Source: a virus
Virus record (IMG/VR): IMGVR_UViG_3300033148_004555
Location: 1 to 28,882 of that record
Direction: 5' to 3' (one strand)
DNA: 28,882 bases
A program made the translations under genes and the position numbers. The number at the start of each line of letters is the position of its first letter. The first letter of the stretch is position 1. Below the pieces are notes generated by a model, which saw only the letters and a program-made list of their open reading frames with translations, did not search any database and had not been told where the DNA came from. Shown piece by piece: positions 217-15,986 of this stretch.

Positions 217-1954
217 TTTTCAAGAGTTAGGCATCGAGCTTAGAGGTTCAGGGCAGCACAAAACTAAATGTCCAGAATGTCCAAAGTTAGGAAAGCGGCA
301 AGAAGATAGTCTTTCGGTAGATCCAAACCAAGGATTGTTCAATTGTCACAAATGTGGATGGAATAACGGCCAAATAAACCCACAGAATCGCCAGAACTAT
401 ATCCCACAGCCGCCTAAGCCAAAAAAACAAAGTGAGTATAAGCCTAGCGAGTTAAGAGCCCTTAAAGAGCCTGAAATAGCTTTCTTCACAAATAGAGGAA
501 TTTCAGAAGATACGCTTTTTAAATCTAATGTCAGAGGTTGCACAAGATGGATGCCGCAATATAAGGCCGAAGTAGACACGATAGCTTTTCAATTTATCAA
601 AGGCAATCAGAGAGTAAACACGAAGTATAGAACAGCAAATAAGGATATGGCGCAAGATGCTAACGCTGAGAAGTGCTTCTATAATTTCGAGGCATTAGAG
701 AAGAAGCCTAAGAAGCTATTTATTACAGAGGGAGAGATTGACGCGCTAACTCTGATAGAATGCGGCTTCAAGGATGTTGTCAGTGTTCCAGATGGAGCGC
801 CAAACCCAACGGCCAATAATTTAGATAATAAGTTCTCATACTTCACAGATGAGGCAATGAAGTTATTTGATGAAATAGAGCAAATAGTACTTGTTACCGA
901 TAATGATGAAAATGGCCGCTTCTTAGAGTCTGAGTTAAAAAGGCGCATAGGGATAGATAAGTGTTTGTTTGTCCAATATCCAGAAGGCAGCAAGGATATA
1001 AATGACGTTCTAGTTAAAGAAGGGCCTGAAGCGGTAGAAGATGTTTTAATCTCTGCGAAACATTATCCAGTTGATGGTTTACATACCTTCAAGGATTACG
1101 AAAATGAAATAATTGATATGTATAACGGGGTTGCTCAGGAGTATTGGAAAACTGGCTGGCCTCATATGGATAAACATTTAAAAGTCAAAGGCGGTCAACT
1201 TAATGTAGTGACAGGTACACCTGGCAGCGGTAAAAGTGAATGGGTTGACGATTTAATGATTAACACAATTCATAATTATGGCGCTAAGTGGGCGGTATTC
1301 TCTCCAGAAAACTATCCGGTTAAAGTGTATTTCAGGAAGTTATCTGAAAAATATGAAGCTAAAAACTTCAATGACTTTAATGAAGCAACGCTTAGTAATT
1401 CTATAAATGAGCTTAGTAACTATATAAATCTTATTGTCGATAACGATAAAGATGAAGTTACAATGGATTATCTATTTGAGCGCATTAGGACTCTTGTATT
1501 CAGGAAAGGGATTAAGGGCGTTATCATTGATCCTTGGAATGAGATAGAGCACACAATAGGCCCAAGAGAAGATATTTATTTGGCTAAGATGCTTAGGAAG
1601 ATTAAGCGGTTTATTAGAAAGTATGATTTATCATTCTGGCTTGTAGCGCACCCAAAGAACCCACAGAAGGATAAAGACGGCAATTACTATAAGACAACCG
1701 CTTATGATATCGCCGGCGGTTATACATGGAATGCCAAAGCGGATAATATTTTTTCAGTTTGGAGAGATAGGCAAGACAATAAAAAGCCTGTTGAGGTGGA
1801 TATACTTAAAATCAAATATAAGACCGATGGTGCTTTAGGAACATGTAAGTTTTTCTACCAATATGCTACGGGCAAATATAATTCTAGTGGAAGCTCATTA
1901 GATGATCTTACTAAAGTAGAGGATAAAGGAGGAGCAACAGTAAATGGATGGTGA
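209..1954 (+). CDS. Bifunctional DNA primase-helicase, T7 gp4-like
   Basis: It should prime lagging-strand synthesis and unwind DNA at the phage fork. Numbered from ATG 209 (581 aa), it begins with a zinc-binding site (C21-x2-C24, C46-x2-C49, in KCPEC and CHKCGW). A TOPRIM core follows, with TEGEIDAL (E174, E176, D178) and a second acidic cluster VTDNDENGR. A RecA/DnaB-type helicase domain comes next, with Walker A GTPGSGKS near residue 340 and Walker B GVIIDPW. The C-terminus keeps the helicase-like AHPKNPQKDKDG and ADNIFSVWRD segments. A TTG at 155 is in frame, but ATG 209 places the zinc finger at the usual distance from the N-terminus and follows a purine-rich stretch (GGGGG at 196-200). 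Length and domain order match T7 gp4-type proteins. Confidence 0.93.
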   Translation: MLNFQELGIELRGSGQHKTKCPECPKLGKRQEDSLSVDPNQGLFNCHKCGWNNGQINPQNRQNYIPQPPKPKKQSEYKPSELRALKEPEIAFFTNRGISEDTLFKSNVRGCTRWMPQYKAEVDTIAFQFIKGNQRVNTKYRTANKDMAQDANAEKCFYNFEALEKKPKKLFITEGEIDALTLIECGFKDVVSVPDGAPNPTANNLDNKFSYFTDEAMKLFDEIEQIVLVTDNDENGRFLESELKRRIGIDKCLFVQYPEGSKDINDVLVKEGPEAVEDVLISAKHYPVDGLHTFKDYENEIIDMYNGVAQEYWKTGWPHMDKHLKVKGGQLNVVTGTPGSGKSEWVDDLMINTIHNYGAKWAVFSPENYPVKVYFRKLSEKYEAKNFNDFNEATLSNSINELSNYINLIVDNDKDEVTMDYLFERIRTLVFRKGIKGVIIDPWNEIEHTIGPREDIYLAKMLRKIKRFIRKYDLSFWLVAHPKNPQKDKDGNYYKTTAYDIAGGYTWNAKADNIFSVWRDRQDNKKPVEVDILKIKYKTDGALGTCKFFYQYATGKYNSSGSSLDDLTKVEDKGGATVNGW

Positions 1955-2132
1955 TATTTTATACTGCGTTTTATGCACGACTTCACAGAACAACCCGTTT
2001 ATTGAGGGAGTATTCGAGGAGAAGGCTATAGCAGATTTTCATTGCAAAGTTAATCAAGATAACGGAATATTTTCTGTAGTTGTAGAAAAAGAACTTAATA
2101 GACTACCAGCAAAAAGGAGGCAGCAGGGATGA
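1944..2132 (+). CDS. Small hypothetical protein
   Basis: 62 aa. It starts at ATG 1944 inside the last codons of the primase-helicase gene, behind AAAGGAGGAG at about 1924-1933. I recognise no domain. The N-terminus has C-x2-C (YCVLCTT) and a lone C later (DFHC), and the C-terminus is basic (PAKRRQQG). The 3' end overlaps the following PP-loop gene by ATGA and doubles as that gene's ribosome binding site. The tight spacing on both sides supports a real gene in the replication operon; the function is unknown. Confidence 0.6.
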   Translation: MDGDILYCVLCTTSQNNPFIEGVFEEKAIADFHCKVNQDNGIFSVVVEKELNRLPAKRRQQG

Positions 2133-2950
2133 CAGAAGAAATGAAAGATTTCTTAGAGTCTGATTATACTTACTGGTCAGATATGCCAAAAGAAGACAGA
2201 ACAATAGTTTTTAGTTTTGGTGGTGGTGTGGATTCCACTGGCATGCTGTTTGAGTTTGACCGACAAGGATATATGCCAGACCTTTTAATATTCGCTGATA
2301 CTGGCGGTGAAAGGCCGGATATTTATGCGCATATAGAGAAGCTTAATAAGTGGCTTGATAAGAAATGGAGTAAGCAGATTATTGTCGTTAAAAATAAGGA
2401 AACTCTTTACGATGAATGTATAAGGCGAAAAACTTTACCGGCCCTTGCTATGGGGCATCACACTTGCAGCCAAAAACACAAAATAAGACCTATCGCAAAA
2501 TACTTAAGAGCTAATGGACATCGCAATATAATTAAAATTCTAGGTTTTGATGCTTTGGAATTTGACCGGGCTAGAAGAGGATTAACAAGCGTTGAAAATA
2601 ACAAGAATACGGAAGAATCTGGAATTGATATGAAAATCTGGTTTCCGCTTATTGAATGGGGGAAGACTAGGGAAGATTTGAAAAAAGAGATTAATGAGGT
2701 CGGTTTCTGTGCTTCAAAATCATCATGTTTCTTTTGCCCGGCTATGTCACGTGGCGAAGTTAGGCAGTTAGACCAACACTATCCTGAATTAATGGAGAAA
2801 GCTTTAAAAATGGAGAGAGGCGCCAAACTTGATAATACAAGAGGTTTAGGCCGTTCATGGAACTGGGAGCAGGAACTAAATCAAATGGAATTTTGGACAG
2901 TTGACGAAATGAAAGATAATCCACAAACATGCGGGTGTTTAAATTGGTGA
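2129..2950 (+). CDS. PP-loop protein, phosphoadenosine phosphosulfate reductase family
   Basis: 273 aa. The adenylate-binding PP-loop is seen as FSFGGGVDST (residues 28-37), followed by a family-typical ADTGGERPD at 56-64. Further on are HHTCSQKHKIRP and a cysteine cluster FCASKSSCFFCPAMSRGE, and the protein ends in CGCLNW. Family members adenylate a substrate or reduce or transfer sulfur; phage members are often annotated as PAPS reductase without a proven substrate. The cysteine cluster resembles proteins that could bind an Fe-S cluster or zinc, as in DndC-like sulfurtransferases. A role in DNA or tRNA thiolation or in sulfur metabolism is inference. The start is ATG 2129 behind AAAAAGGAGG (2111-2120), overlapping the preceding gene by ATGA. 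Confidence 0.8.
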   Translation: MTEEMKDFLESDYTYWSDMPKEDRTIVFSFGGGVDSTGMLFEFDRQGYMPDLLIFADTGGERPDIYAHIEKLNKWLDKKWSKQIIVVKNKETLYDECIRRKTLPALAMGHHTCSQKHKIRPIAKYLRANGHRNIIKILGFDALEFDRARRGLTSVENNKNTEESGIDMKIWFPLIEWGKTREDLKKEINEVGFCASKSSCFFCPAMSRGEVRQLDQHYPELMEKALKMERGAKLDNTRGLGRSWNWEQELNQMEFWTVDEMKDNPQTCGCLNW

Positions 2951-3008
2951 ATTTAGATGATATTGACGAAAGATTATTATTTGATGATGAGTTTATTAAT
3001 AGTATTTA

Positions 3009-3031
3009 CAGCAAAAAGGAGGCAGGGATGA
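3009..3031 (+). repeat. Repeated RBS-and-start junction (partner at 2107-2132)
   Basis: Bases 3009-3031 repeat 2107-2132: the same CAG-CAAAAAGGAGG core, then CAG (doubled in the first copy), then GGATGA containing the start codon. The two sit at the starts of different, unrelated genes, so the junction has been copied rather than the gene. Confidence 0.7.
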
Positions 3032-3222
3032 GTGAGGAATACGGAGAGTATGAGGCTATAAATGGTGCTATAGCGAATGAGTTGATTAAAGAACGCGACA
3101 AGTACAAAAAGGCGCTGGAGGAGATAGCGACAGGCAAAATAGACTGGACTATTACAGATAATCTTACAAAGACAAGGGGCGAAATTTTTCAAGATATAGC
3201 ACAGGAGGCGCTAAACAAATGA
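3028..3222 (+). CDS. Small hypothetical protein with a C-terminal 'KYKKALEEI...EAL' module
   Basis: 64 aa from ATG 3028, chosen because a near-perfect Shine-Dalgarno sequence (AAAAAGGAGG) ends 8 bases upstream. The frame is open back to ATG 2929 or GTG 2947, and GTG 2947 would overlap the preceding stop, so a 91-97 aa product cannot be excluded. The protein is charged and probably helical. Its end, DKYKKALEEIATGKID... IAQEALNK, is a module widely seen at the C-terminus of small phage proteins and recurs in the next gene. No function is known. It overlaps the next gene by ATGA. Confidence 0.6.
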   Translation: MSEEYGEYEAINGAIANELIKERDKYKKALEEIATGKIDWTITDNLTKTRGEIFQDIAQEALNK

Positions 3223-3449
3223 TGATAGAATGCACACAATGCCAATCAGATATTTTAACTGAGGCTGATCCTTATCTGTACCAAAATACTGCCAATGGTG
3301 TAGTTTTTATATGTATGGATTGTGTTAAAGCCAATCTCAATAATAAGTACCGCAAAGCTTTGGAGGAGGTTAAAGAGATTATGCCGTCAGTTTATAGTAG
3401 CGATCGAGAAGTACATAAGATAATTGACGAGGCGCTAAAAAATGAGTAA
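3219..3449 (+). CDS. Small zinc-ribbon protein
   Basis: 76 aa. Two CxxC pairs (C5-x2-C8 in ECTQC, C32-x2-C35 in ICMDC) form a four-cysteine zinc ribbon in the N-terminal half. The C-terminal half, NKYRKALEEVKEI ... IDEALKNE, repeats the module at the end of the preceding gene, so the pair looks like different heads on a shared tail. ATG 3219 overlaps the preceding TGA. Function unknown; binding nucleic acid or a host enzyme is possible for such a ribbon but is not shown. Confidence 0.65.
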   Translation: MMIECTQCQSDILTEADPYLYQNTANGVVFICMDCVKANLNNKYRKALEEVKEIMPSVYSSDREVHKIIDEALKNE

Positions 3450-3708
3450 CCCAAACTATCACGGGATTGCATTAAATAACGCCAGAGTAATTGAGGATTT
3501 TAGTAAGTCATTGCAAAAGCGTAATAAGGAGGTTGAATTCCTCTTATTGGGATTATTCATAAATTGGAGGTCTATGAGCAAGTTGAGAATGTTTTAAATT
3601 CTAATGAAGTTTTGAAGTTTGGAAGAATAGAAGAGAGGTACAAAAAATCGGATTCAGCAACAAAGAAATCTTGAAGCATATGAAGCGGAGAAAGAGTGGT
3701 GAAATATG
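3442..3708 (+). pseudogene. Frame-disrupted small coiled-coil gene (two -1 breaks), or a frameshifting gene
   Basis: ATG 3442 overlaps the preceding stop and opens a 51-codon frame (MSNPNYHGIALNNARV...) ending at 3597. A better continuation lies in the -1 frame from about 3537 (IIHKLEVYEQVENVL...FGRIEERYKK), which stops at 3674. A second -1 step at the A-run 3642-3647 opens IGFSNKEILKHMKRRKSGEI, stopping at 3706-3708. That last peptide is nearly the same as one encoded at 4099-4143 (13 of 15 residues, with several synonymous changes), so it was or is translated. The segment may be a decayed gene, carry two single-base sequence errors, or use programmed frameshifting. The product is unknown. 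Confidence 0.45.
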
Positions 3709-3887
3709 AAGTTGAGATAGATGAAGTTAGAAGTTTTTGGTTTGAAGTAGAAGCTGAAAGTGAAGAGGAGGCCATAGAAAAGGCTCATAAATTACTAAAC
3801 GGCGATGGAAGAGAGGATGGTTTTATGGATTGCGACACAAAAACAACTGTGCATGATCCAGAGATAAAAAAGGAGAATGAGCGGTGA
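3699..3887 (+). CDS. Small acidic protein, DpnD/PcfM-like
   Basis: 62 aa from GTG 3699 (GTG 3696 is also in frame). It begins VKYEVEIDEVRSFWFEVEAE and continues with ESEEEAIEKAHKLL. This pattern of a beta strand, a hydrophobic-VEAES strand and an EEAIEKA helix is typical of DpnD/PcfM-like small proteins of phages and plasmids, whose role is unclear. The start overlaps frames of the disrupted upstream gene, and the 3' end provides AAAAAAGGAG for the next gene. The assignment is by motif only. Confidence 0.5.
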   Translation: MKYEVEIDEVRSFWFEVEAESEEEAIEKAHKLLNGDGREDGFMDCDTKTTVHDPEIKKENER

Positions 3888-4126
3888 TAAAACGAGTCAA
3901 TTACTTTGAGTTTAAGCATTATGATATAAGCTCTGAGATTCGAAGGTGCATAGAGGATTGCAAGAGGTTTAATTCTGTAAATGTCATTTGCATGAATGGT
4001 GTACATATAGCTGTATCACCTAATGACAATGAACTGGATATATGGAAGACTTATTGGCTTAGGGCGGAATTGGAAGAAGTGAAAAAGGAGAATAGAAAAT
4101 CGGACACTCAAACAAGCAGATCTTAA
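3884..4126 (+). CDS. Small hypothetical protein, possibly extended by a -1 frameshift to 4203
   Basis: 80 aa from GTG 3884, overlapping the preceding stop as GTGA, with AAAAAAGGAG at 3867-3876. No domain is recognised; it is a mixed protein ending in a charged helix (WLRAELEEVKKENRK). At AGA-AAA (4094-4099) a -1 step would replace the last nine residues with IGHSNKQILKHMKRR and about 20 more, ending at TGA 4201-4203, which overlaps the next start as ATGA. The same break occurs at 3642-3650. The short and the extended product are both possible; which is made cannot be decided from sequence. Confidence 0.5.
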   Translation: MIKRVNYFEFKHYDISSEIRRCIEDCKRFNSVNVICMNGVHIAVSPNDNELDIWKTYWLRAELEEVKKENRKSDTQTSRS

Positions 4127-4199
4127 AGCATATGAAGCGCAGGCCAAATACGCCGCGTGAGATTAAGGTAAAGATACAAGAGAAAAAGGAGAAGAGGAA

Positions 4200-4403
4200 A
4201 TGAAAATAACAATATCTTGTGTAATGGGAATGGTTATGATAGATAGTAATTTATTATCCTACTCAAGTATAAAAGATATGTATCAGACCGGGACTGGCCA
4301 TGGCATTCAGGTTGATTATCCATTGAATGAAAAAGAAGCTATAAAGATATGTTCTCAAATAGCTGATTTATGTTATCAATTAGAGGAGTTGCATAAGAAA
4401 TGA
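4200..4403 (+). CDS. Small hypothetical protein
   Basis: 67 aa. The start ATG 4200 has AAAAAGGAGAAGAGG just upstream (4183-4197). The N-terminus MKITISCVMGMVMIDSNLL is hydrophobic but interrupted, so it is not a convincing signal peptide. The C-terminal half, KEAIKICSQIADLCYQLEEL, is an amphipathic helix. No domain is recognised. Overlap by ATGA with the next gene indicates coupled translation. Confidence 0.55.
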   Translation: MKITISCVMGMVMIDSNLLSYSSIKDMYQTGTGHGIQVDYPLNEKEAIKICSQIADLCYQLEELHKK

Positions 4404-4561: not shown

Positions 4562-5060
4562 GAAGATATTAGCAATTGACCCGGGTAACATAGAATCAGG
4601 TTGGTGCTTGATAAATGATGATTATACCGTAGTTGAGAAGGGAAAGGATGAGAATATTGTTTTAGTTAAGAATATTTATAATCTTTATTACAAATATAAT
4701 CCAGATCATATAGTTGTTGAAATGGTCGCATCTTATGGTATGGCAGTTGGCCAAACAGTTTTTGATACTTGTGTTTGGATTGGTAGGTATCTTCAACAGG
4801 CTGATGAAATGGGGGTGCCTTCATCTAGAATGTACCGGAAAGATATAAAAATGAACATCTGCGGCCAAGTTAGAGCTAAGGACTCTAATATCAGACAGGC
4901 TTTAGTAGATCGATTTAGTTATGAGAGGCATAAAGCTAAAGGGGGAAAAGGGGTAAAGGCTGACCCGGGTTTTTTCTATGGGTTTAGTAAAGATATGTGG
5001 GCTGCTTATGCGGTTGGTGTGACTTATTTAGATTTAGAAAAGAGGAAGAAGAGTAGATGA
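4548..5060 (+). CDS. RuvC-like Holliday-junction resolvase (RNase H fold)
   Basis: 170 aa from ATG 4548; GTG 4539 is also in frame and would add three residues. The RuvC signature is visible: ILAIDPGNIESGWCL with D11, HIVVEMVASYG with E58, and KDMWAAYAVGVTY with D149. These are the expected acidic metal-binding residues of RuvC/RNase H-fold resolvases. It should cut branched DNA during replication, recombination or before packaging. Length is close to that of bacterial RuvC (about 170 aa). The 3' end (KRKKSR) contains the ribosome binding site of the next gene, which overlaps by ATGA. Confidence 0.85.
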   Translation: MPKIEKILAIDPGNIESGWCLINDDYTVVEKGKDENIVLVKNIYNLYYKYNPDHIVVEMVASYGMAVGQTVFDTCVWIGRYLQQADEMGVPSSRMYRKDIKMNICGQVRAKDSNIRQALVDRFSYERHKAKGGKGVKADPGFFYGFSKDMWAAYAVGVTYLDLEKRKKSR

Positions 5061-5536
5061 GAGATATTCGAGTAAGGATTAAAGCGCCAATTACAGAACA
5101 TTGTACAAAGTGCGAGTATGAAGCGAGTAGAAGCTTTTATTCACATTTACATAAATGCCCTGAATGCGGTGAGGCTAGTGTAAGATCGGGTCGAAGAATT
5201 AAGAGGCATCATGTGAAGGTATCTGCATGTGAGGGGCAGTATAATTTATTATGTAGTGATGATAAACAATGGCGATATTTATTTTCTCACATACCTGAGA
5301 TTGGTCAAGCTTCTTTTATTGTTGATGATGTATATGATACATCCTGCCCCTATCAACTCATAAGTGACTTAAAGTTCGATATCGACAAATACCTATTAAA
5401 TTCTAAAAAAGAATTAGTCAATAAGGTCTACGACTTATTTATGGATGAGGATTTCCAAGAAAAGAACGATTCTATTAAATTAGAAAATGACATCTATGAC
5501 GCGAAAGTAAATCTTTATAAGTTATTGCAATATTAA
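5057..5536 (+). CDS. Hypothetical protein with N-terminal zinc ribbon
   Basis: 159 aa. C16-x2-C19 and C34-x2-C37 (HCTKC, KCPECGE) form a zinc ribbon with a basic segment after it (RSGRRIKRHHVK), suggesting nucleic-acid contact. The rest is acidic and helical, with no recognised domain. The start at ATG 5057 overlaps the RuvC-like gene's TGA, and AGGAAGAAGAG upstream is the ribosome binding site. Pairing with a resolvase may be functional but could equally be packing. Confidence 0.6.
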   Translation: MRDIRVRIKAPITEHCTKCEYEASRSFYSHLHKCPECGEASVRSGRRIKRHHVKVSACEGQYNLLCSDDKQWRYLFSHIPEIGQASFIVDDVYDTSCPYQLISDLKFDIDKYLLNSKKELVNKVYDLFMDEDFQEKNDSIKLENDIYDAKVNLYKLLQY

Positions 5537-5538
5537 AA

Positions 5539-5556
5539 AGGAAGAAGAGTAGATGA
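5539..5556 (+). repeat. Repeated RBS-and-start junction (partner at 5043-5060)
   Basis: The 18 bases aggaagaagagtagatga occur exactly at 5043-5060 and 5539-5556. In the first copy they encode the end of the RuvC-like protein and hold the next start codon. In the second they lie in the gap after a stop codon and again end in a start codon. Confidence 0.8.
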
Positions 5557-6865: not shown

Positions 6866-7018
6866 TTATTTACCTATAATACATTTGTAGTAGAATTTAT
6901 TTTTATTGAAAAGATTATTTAAGTACTCAACGCGCTTTATTGTATCGCTGAAATATCTATACTCTTCAAAAGTACTGCCAGTATTTCGGTTGATTATTTT
7001 GTATATGGGAAGTTTCAT
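6866..7018 (-). CDS. 50-residue hypothetical protein whose start has been duplicated
   Basis: 50 aa from the ATG at 7018-7016 to TAA 6868-6866. It begins MKLPIYKIINRNTG and is basic and aromatic (FYYKCIIGK at the end). An identical 26-bp unit carrying the same start lies just upstream (7019-7044), with the ribosome binding site AAGGAGTAAATAAG in front. Translation from that first ATG gives only MKLPIYKII before TGA, and this TGA overlaps ATG 7018 as ATGA. The 50-residue frame is therefore reached only by reinitiation. The function is unknown; without the duplication it would be a normal small gene. Confidence 0.5.
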   Translation of the reverse strand: MKLPIYKIINRNTGSTFEEYRYFSDTIKRVEYLNNLFNKNKFYYKCIIGK

Positions 7019-7044
7019 ATTATTTTGTATATGGGAAGTTTCAT
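6993..7044 (-). repeat. 26-bp perfect tandem duplication over a start codon
   Basis: Bases 6993-7018 and 7019-7044 are identical and adjacent. Each contains, on the minus strand, ATG plus eight further codons of the same gene. Since 26 is not a multiple of three, the second copy is out of frame with the first. Confidence 0.92.
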
Positions 7045-7070
7045 CTTATTTACTCCTTATTAGTTTTCAC

Positions 7071-7112: not shown

Positions 7113-7142
7113 GGTTATGGTTATGGTTATGGTTATGGTTAT
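7113..7142. repeat. Five tandem copies of the hexamer GGTTAT
   Basis: Five exact GGTTAT units run from 7113 to 7142 and continue into an imperfect GGTTTGGTTAT. The run lies between the stop codon of the 128-aa minus-strand gene (7150) and its terminator, so it is in the 3' untranslated part of that transcript. Confidence 0.9.
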
Positions 7143-7149
7143 GGTTTGG

Positions 7150-14520: not shown

Positions 14521-14853
14521 TTATTCTGGTTTAGTGTAGCCCATATCTTCCATTCGCTTCCTATAAGGAGAGCCAACCTCCCATACATTAGCGTTTAAAA
14601 TATTCCAACAATCTTGATTTAGAGTGGCCCCATGTTCAAGCGCTGTAACTAAATGTCCTACCCCGCAGACTAAGCCAAGCTCAACACCTCTATCAATAGT
14701 TTCTTGTACTGTATCAAAGATCTCTACTGTATGAGCAGAAGTTACTTTATTTTTAAGGAATACAGCATCAATAAAATCACTCCCACAGTAAATTAAGATG
14801 TATTTCTCAGCGGGTAGTGTTATATCTGTTATTGTATTGTGATCGCAACTCAT
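14521..14853 (-). CDS. Hypothetical virion-cluster protein
   Basis: 110 aa. It has five cysteines (SCDHNT, IYCGSDF, LGLVCGVGH, LNQDCWN) and ends in a segment NVWEVGSPYRKRMEDMGYTK. No known domain. ATG 14853 overlaps the stop of the BspA-like gene as ATGA, so the two are translationally coupled. It may be a chaperone or a capping piece for that protein, a guess from linkage only. Confidence 0.5.
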   Translation of the reverse strand: MSCDHNTITDITLPAEKYILIYCGSDFIDAVFLKNKVTSAHTVEIFDTVQETIDRGVELGLVCGVGHLVTALEHGATLNQDCWNILNANVWEVGSPYRKRMEDMGYTKPE

Positions 14854-15986
14854 ACTGGGGAGTCTCCTGTAATTGTCATGAAGGCTGGACTACCAACAAG
14901 TGAAGCTCTAGCCGCGCCACCTGCGCCAGCACCTGTGTAAGTAAGGCCATTTGCACCTAGTGGTATATTCGGCTGCAATGGTTGGGAGTCTAAATTAATT
15001 AACCAAGCGTCATATTGAGCAGTAGTTAAACCACTACCACTTAACATACCAGTCATATCTGTGACTTGACCCACATTCCAAGAGCTAATATCTTGACTGA
15101 ATGAAGGGGTCGTATCAAACATCTCAGTCATATCTGTAACATTAGATGTATCAAAGTGGCTAATATCTTGATCAAAGGAAGTGCCGGCGAACATACCCCT
15201 CATGGTAGTACAGCTACTAGTATCCCAAGATGGTACAGGCTGATTAAAATTATCAGCACTTCTGAACATTTCAGCTAGGTTTGTGACATTAGAAACATCA
15301 AACTGATCTACAGGTTGATTAAAGGCATCAGCAGTACCGAACATACTACTCATACTTGTTACATTACTTGTATTCCAAGGTAAAGGCTGATTGAATACAG
15401 TGGCACCGCTAAATGTAGCAATCATAAGTACGACATTGCTAGTATCCCAACTAGACATTCCTTGGTTATATACCACGCATCTATTGAATGTACCAAATAG
15501 AGAAAAGCATTGACTAATATCCCAATTATCTATATCGCCATTAAATAAGAAGCAATCTCTAAAAGTAACTCCTAGTGACTGGATCAAGTGAGGTGCATCA
15601 GTAGCTGTCCAAGTCATATTATTGCAGCCATCAAAAGCGCCTTCATTGTCAAAGGTAAGAGCTAAACTCTCGCACTGAGATACATTGGTAAGTTTTAATG
15701 CATCATAACGACCAACAGCTCCAAAGGACCAATCAGTAATAATTGCATCTACGATAACTGTATAGGCCCCACCAACAGAATACTCATGTTCAACTTCATA
15801 GTTGCGGATACCATCACCCCAATCAACTAATTGACGACCTCTTGTTAGATTTGGCAATCTTATAGTTCTTGTAGGACTACCAGTACCACCAAGGTTTTCG
15901 GTATTCCATTGGGTTATAAGCGGGGCATAGGGATTGCCGCCGCCACCAGAGATTTTAGGCCGAACATGCGGCCCGACCTGTAGCAT
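14850..15986 (-). CDS. Surface protein with PKD-like domain and BspA/DUF285 repeats
   Basis: 378 aa. The first part contains VDWGDGIRNYEVEHEYSVGG, the WGDG...H.Y...G.Y pattern of PKD-type beta-sandwich domains. From about residue 125 follow roughly seven repeats of about 25 residues on the theme FNQ-I-WDTSNVT-M--MF (for example FDQDISHFDTSNVTDMTEMF). These are the BspA-like/DUF285 leucine-rich-repeat-type units known from bacterial and mycoplasma surface proteins. The end (GANGLTYTGAGAGGAARASL...) is a low-complexity cap. There is no signal peptide, so it is more likely a virion component than secreted. Adhesion is the natural role. The start follows the upstream stop by one base. Confidence 0.75.
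   Translation of the reverse strand: MLQVGPHVRPKISGGGGNPYAPLITQWNTENLGGTGSPTRTIRLPNLTRGRQLVDWGDGIRNYEVEHEYSVGGAYTVIVDAIITDWSFGAVGRYDALKLTNVSQCESLALTFDNEGAFDGCNNMTWTATDAPHLIQSLGVTFRDCFLFNGDIDNWDISQCFSLFGTFNRCVVYNQGMSSWDTSNVVLMIATFSGATVFNQPLPWNTSNVTSMSSMFGTADAFNQPVDQFDVSNVTNLAEMFRSADNFNQPVPSWDTSSCTTMRGMFAGTSFDQDISHFDTSNVTDMTEMFDTTPSFSQDISSWNVGQVTDMTGMLSGSGLTTAQYDAWLINLDSQPLQPNIPLGANGLTYTGAGAGGAARASLVGSPAFMTITGDSPV

Follow-up and report, generated by a model that had tools for sequence, protein, structure and literature searches.

The window analysed here, meaning the whole stretch of 28,882 nucleotides, is a 28.9-kb contig from an uncultivated virus (IMGVR_UViG_3300033148_004555). It belongs to a phage with a P22-like portal, and it further encodes a primase/helicase, a RuvC-like resolvase, a terminase, and head and tail genes. 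The locus of interest sits among tightly packed short early genes joined by start-stop overlaps. Six ATGA/GTGA gene junctions are present in the window, and the downstream gene is in -1 phase at each of them. A PAPS-reductase-like gene (2129-2950) is also found among the early genes.

The features of the locus all lie on the plus strand. Gene 1 (3442..3674; MSNPNYHGIALNNARVIEDF...) starts at 3442. Overlapping its end, in the -1 frame relative to it, is the small ORF X1 (3647..3709), which encodes (I/M)GFSNKEILKHMKRRKSGEI (20 aa) and has AUC in the start position. X1 ends at the beginning of the next small gene (3699..3887; MKYEVEIDEVRSFW...), which has a GTG start and whose Shine-Dalgarno (SD) sequence, GCGGAG, lies inside X1. 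Gene 2 (3884..4126; MIKRVNYFEFKHYD...KKENRKSDTQTSRS, 80 aa) also starts with GTG, and its final 9 codons are contained within a second small ORF, X2 (4099..4203). X2 encodes (I/M)GHSNKQILKHMKRRPNTPREIKVKIQEKKEKRK (34 aa), is in the -1 frame relative to gene 2, and likewise has AUC in the start position. A gene of 67 aa (4200..4403) follows, starting at ATG 4200.

The repeat and its reading frames

X1 and X2 begin within a 60-nt repeat (family D2; 3631-3690 and 4083-4142) whose copies are 73% identical; no third copy of its core exists anywhere in the window, where 0.01 chance matches are expected. The initial annotation, made from the sequence alone, had described two related gene ends with a common -1 frame break. 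The relationship holds, as does the observation that the conserved frame is not that of the upstream gene but -1 to it in both copies. A-rich DNA followed by ATC was also correctly recognized, but the ATC codons lie at 3647-3649 and 4099-4101, and the A-runs comprise six and four residues without a common heptamer.

In the -1 frame, the copies read IGFSNKEILKHMKRRKSGEI and IGHSNKQILKHMKRRPNTPREIKVKIQEKKEKRK before their stops and share 13 of 15 residues; in the +1 frame, they read NRIQQQRNLEAYEAEKEW and NRTLKQADLKAYEAQAKYAA and share 7 of 14. Frame 0, in which the upstream genes are read, ends with KSDSATKKS in copy one and KSDTQTSRS in copy two. When the 11 differences between the copies were placed at random, the identity seen in the -1 frame was reached in fewer than 1 in 5,000 trials (P < 2e-4), as opposed to 4-14% and 53-80% of trials for the other two frames. 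Preserving the clustering of the differences gave P = 0.0025 for the -1 frame, and a codon model comparing copy with copy yielded an omega of 0.2 with a 2dlnL of only 2.6. The between-copy evidence for coding in the -1 frame is thus suggestive, and weaker than it looks.

Upstream of the shared unit, the sequences of the two copies are unrelated, and the unit starts approximately at the SD/ATC. Just 5' of copy two, the -1 frame carries a TAG one codon before the ATC. At the other end, the -1 frame of copy two stops at TGA 4201-4203, in the ATGA overlap with ATG 4200 that had been pointed out initially. X1 is probably a truncated copy, one that runs into the gene at GTG 3699. A single old deletion that was then duplicated, which had also been suggested as the origin of the paired frame break, is unlikely given the unrelated sequences 5' of the unit.

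Comparison with a second contig

A second contig, L002 (IMGVR_UViG_3300033153_009755), is ~99% identical to the window over 265-4203, and both repeat junctions are identical in it. It may come from the same sample as the window. All comparisons rest on three sequences, with L002 as the only relative found. L002 lacks the CT found at 3541-3542 in the window. There, the insertion interrupts gene 1 (MSNPNYHG...) and places the frame directly 5' of copy one out of register with the start at 3442; in L002, gene 1 is whole, with 76 aa ending in ...EERYKKSDSATKKS.

From 4140 onward, the tail of copy two in L002 has diverged, and the gene at 4200-4403 is absent. The -1 frame is nonetheless still open, reading KRRKPTPREIKIKIKEKKDKRK to its stop, and X2 there ends in an ATGA overlap with a different gene, the one whose start in the window is at 4400. 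Between the two X2 alleles, 29 of 34 residues are kept and 11 of 34 codons are changed; six of the 11 changed codons are synonymous, and nine of the 16 base changes fall at third positions. Under the codon model, the tails of the two alleles show constraint in the -1 frame (omega about 0.05, 2dlnL 5.5) and none in the others, which marks X2 as an open frame under coding constraint. Copy one compared with copy two of L002 shows no constraint under the same model. The comparison of the tails is moderate rather than overwhelming, but it gives the strongest indication that this lineage has at some time translated the -1 frame. The earlier view that this frame is or was translated is thus supported, with a statistic less strong than had been stated.

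The +1 frame offers a competing view, in which it would be the translated continuation, a former tail of genes 1 and 2 that an indel in the A-runs displaced. It has the highest codon-usage score of the three frames, a result that also counts against translation of the -1 frame, and its copy-one version terminates in GTGA, overlapping GTG 3699. That score, however, stays high even across stops, and the purine-rich composition confounds it. Further, the +1 frame is unconstrained both between copies and between alleles (P 0.53, omega 1.5-3), and its ends differ (KYAA, NSERD and EKEW, each followed by a stop). We consider this history highly improbable. The plausible-looking +1 product LKAYEAQAKYAA was accordingly rejected on the substitutions, despite its codon usage.

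Sequencing or assembly errors at the A-runs are an explanation to which we give almost no credence. The CT indel in the window does show some variability or imperfection of gene 1 at this place, and nothing else speaks for errors. Runs of four to six A are short for errors of this kind. The extra A at both places that the initial annotation had envisaged is not seen in L002, which has the same bases at both junctions, albeit possibly from the sample that gave the window.

The two contigs also differ by what appears to be a cassette exchange across 4140-4396. The X2 tail has been swapped for a diverged allele with the ATGA joins kept, and the 67-aa gene present in the window and absent from L002 is part of this exchange. 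A mobile 3' cassette had been proposed at the outset; a short gene-like unit, with its 3' end and the next gene exchanged between strains, agrees with that proposal, but the reuse of a frameshift that it included finds no support.

Ribosome-binding sites and start codons

Both ATC codons are preceded by an SD at the distance of a start. The SD of X1 (GAAGAGAGG, 3630..3638) lies 8 nt 5' of ATC 3647, with an anti-SD duplex of -9.2 kcal/mol; that of X2 (AAAAGGAG, 4083..4090) lies 8 nt 5' of ATC 4099, with -8.7 kcal/mol. These SDs place both ATCs in the top 4-5% of positions. An SD of this strength precedes just three of the 78 ATC triplets between 200 and 6258, and two of the three are the ATCs of X1 and X2. 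The starts at GTG 3699, GTG 3884 and ATG 4200 likewise follow a strong SD by 8 nt, as judged from the sequence. Near-cognate codons do occur by chance behind strong SD-like sequences elsewhere in this purine-rich DNA, namely ATT 3537 and ATA 4393; the former is preceded by a very strong SD (AAGGAGG) and happens to be in frame with the remainder of gene 1.

The context of the putative X2 start resembles that of a true gene start. The 24 nt leading to ATC 4099, through its AT, match the 24 nt leading to ATG 4200 at 21 positions, with the ATC in register with the ATG; this is the best match among about 6,060 positions, the runner-up having 17. The start context of copy one, for its part, resembles no true start more closely than background. 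A repeated junction of this kind is also seen at the starts 5057 and 5553, where a near-identical sequence (AAARAGGAAGAAGAGTAGATGA, 95%) spans 5039-5060 and 5535-5556. Repeated junction sequences such as these may guide the shuffling of cassettes.

A common start codon (ATG, GTG or TTG) is absent; both copies have ATC instead, also in L002. X1 and X2 are therefore filed as overlapping ORFs with a non-AUG codon where the start would be, rather than as ordinary genes. Their -1 phase needs no special cause, since this is the usual phase of the ATGA/GTGA junctions of the phage. In E. coli, AUC can initiate weakly and is one of the seven strongest start codons, and detection of an overlapping ORF whose putative start is AUC has been described (PMC12350097). 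Rare instances of near-cognate AUC, AUU and AUA starts have been reported (PMC9094748). For the in-frame ATG at 3680/4132, reinitiation was considered and rejected, as these codons have no SD and conservation begins upstream of them.

Origin and translation of X1 and X2

We lean toward the interpretation that X1 and X2 are paralogous small ORFs that overlap their preceding genes, with weak initiation at AUC the most likely means of their expression. Each ORF would sit behind its own SD and overlap the end of the gene before it by 28 nt, such that the change of frame would fall between two overlapping genes and not inside one. A strong SD and ribosomes arriving from the upstream gene would together aid low-level initiation at the AUC. 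The product is predicted to be a short, very basic, helical peptide, and X1 would be a probable cut-short duplicate. In support of this interpretation, both X2 alleles keep the frame open up to an ATGA overlap, each with a different following gene; against it, AUC is a very poor start codon, yet it is present in both copies. It is possible, if doubtful, that a duplicated micro-gene has been kept with an AUC start in both copies, so that its synthesis would be low and would depend on upstream translation or on start-codon proofreading by IF3 of the host.

The putative X2 peptide has a pI of 11.2. Its AlphaFold2 model contains two helices (5-14 and 19-33) with a pLDDT of 90, a value to be read with the knowledge that short helices often score well. 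That X2 might bind nucleic acids is a guess from its charge alone.

The initial annotation raised programmed -1 frameshifting as one possibility. In this scheme, slippage at A_AAA before the ATC, helped by the upstream SD, would fuse gene 1 to X1 and gene 2 to X2. An A_AA.A is indeed present in the correct phase in both copies, the fused frame is open in both copy-two alleles, and the SD-like sequence ends ~6 nt before the motif's second base. That distance barely falls within the 6-17 nt stimulatory range (PMC4066793), whereas the SD is ideally placed for initiation at ATC. Further, A_AA.A is a weak motif, and there is no slippery heptamer. In E. coli, shift tetramers are barely active without a stimulator, and A_AA.A was the lowest of the six clearly active ones when combined with the IS3 pseudoknot, in a range that starts at 0.26% (PMC4066793). 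The predicted downstream structures are no better than those of shuffled sequences (z of +0.86, or about +0.9, and -0.53). The same site is found only in L002, where it is identical, and copies one and two have unrelated genes as upstream partners; a frameshift signal would therefore have been acquired twice. Taken with the SD placement, these features make programmed frameshifting quite improbable.

X1 and X2 could instead be dead remnants, in which the ATG of a small gene became ATC, a change possibly spread by gene conversion, and which are no longer translated. Such a history accounts for the ATC without an exotic start, and it fits the truncation of X1, the break in gene 1 of the window by the CT insertion, and a region undergoing rearrangement between strains. 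It also requires the same loss of the start in both copies, and X2 is free of stops in both alleles despite changes at 11 of 34 codons, while omega in its tail is low. We judge decay of this kind unlikely, albeit less so than frameshifting.

If X1 and X2 are overlapping small ORFs, the paired "frame break" would reduce to ordinary gene overlap, with a small gene overlooked by gene finders whose lists lack its start codon, and the locus would be a rare example of paralogues that both have AUC in place of a usual start codon. If they are dead remnants, they would be a mere footnote to mosaic phage evolution. A tiny overlapping gene in two copies, a modest curiosity, is more likely than a shared frame slip.

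Homologue searches and known systems

Protein and degenerate DNA searches of phages, plasmids, IMG/VR and GTDB genomes, checked with a positive control, recovered homologues of X1 and X2 in L002 only, and no homologue with an ATG start. The comparison of the joined proteins with known ones, suggested in the initial annotation, gave nothing useful in Pfam and PHROGs scans of three fused versions. Kinship to the HTH_39 winged-helix proteins (PF14090) was a candidate that we rejected. Members such as MSQTERILKHMKRRGSITALDAV in L113 carry the string ILKHMKRR near the N-terminus, as do X1 and X2, but L113 was itself chosen by pattern for that string. The match seemed good with a model that held this pattern-selected member and was gone with an unbiased one; against a model built from other HTH_39 members, neither X1 nor X2 scored above shuffles.

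Phage early-gene arrays can be joined by ATGA or GTGA start-stop overlaps. X1 and X2 resemble such arrays in their -1 phase, their shortness and their own SDs inside the end of the upstream gene, but their overlaps are longer (28 nt as opposed to 4 nt), and they have ATC where ATG or GTG would stand. A non-AUG start is known in bacteria from infC, which uses AUU. Small or nested bacterial ORFs that start with AUC, AUU or AUA are also alike in having a near-cognate AUN codon behind an SD and in overlapping another gene (PMC12350097); here, by contrast, two phage paralogues share the AUC and are known from sequence alone. The frameshifting of IS1/IS3, dnaX and phage tail chaperones (PMC4066793, PMC3711429) has the -1 phase, A-rich site and upstream SD in common with X1 and X2, which differ in having only the weak A_AA.A and no heptamer, structure or conserved upstream partner.

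Other features of the window

A protein with DUF285 repeats (Pfam PF03382) is encoded on the minus strand at 14850-15986, near a tail-fibre-like gene. At 6993-7050, the window has 26 bp that are missing from L002 and belong to a short tandem duplication (TTTTGTATATGGGAAGTTTCAT). A (GGTTAT)n hexanucleotide run occupies 7113-7148 in a non-coding stretch.
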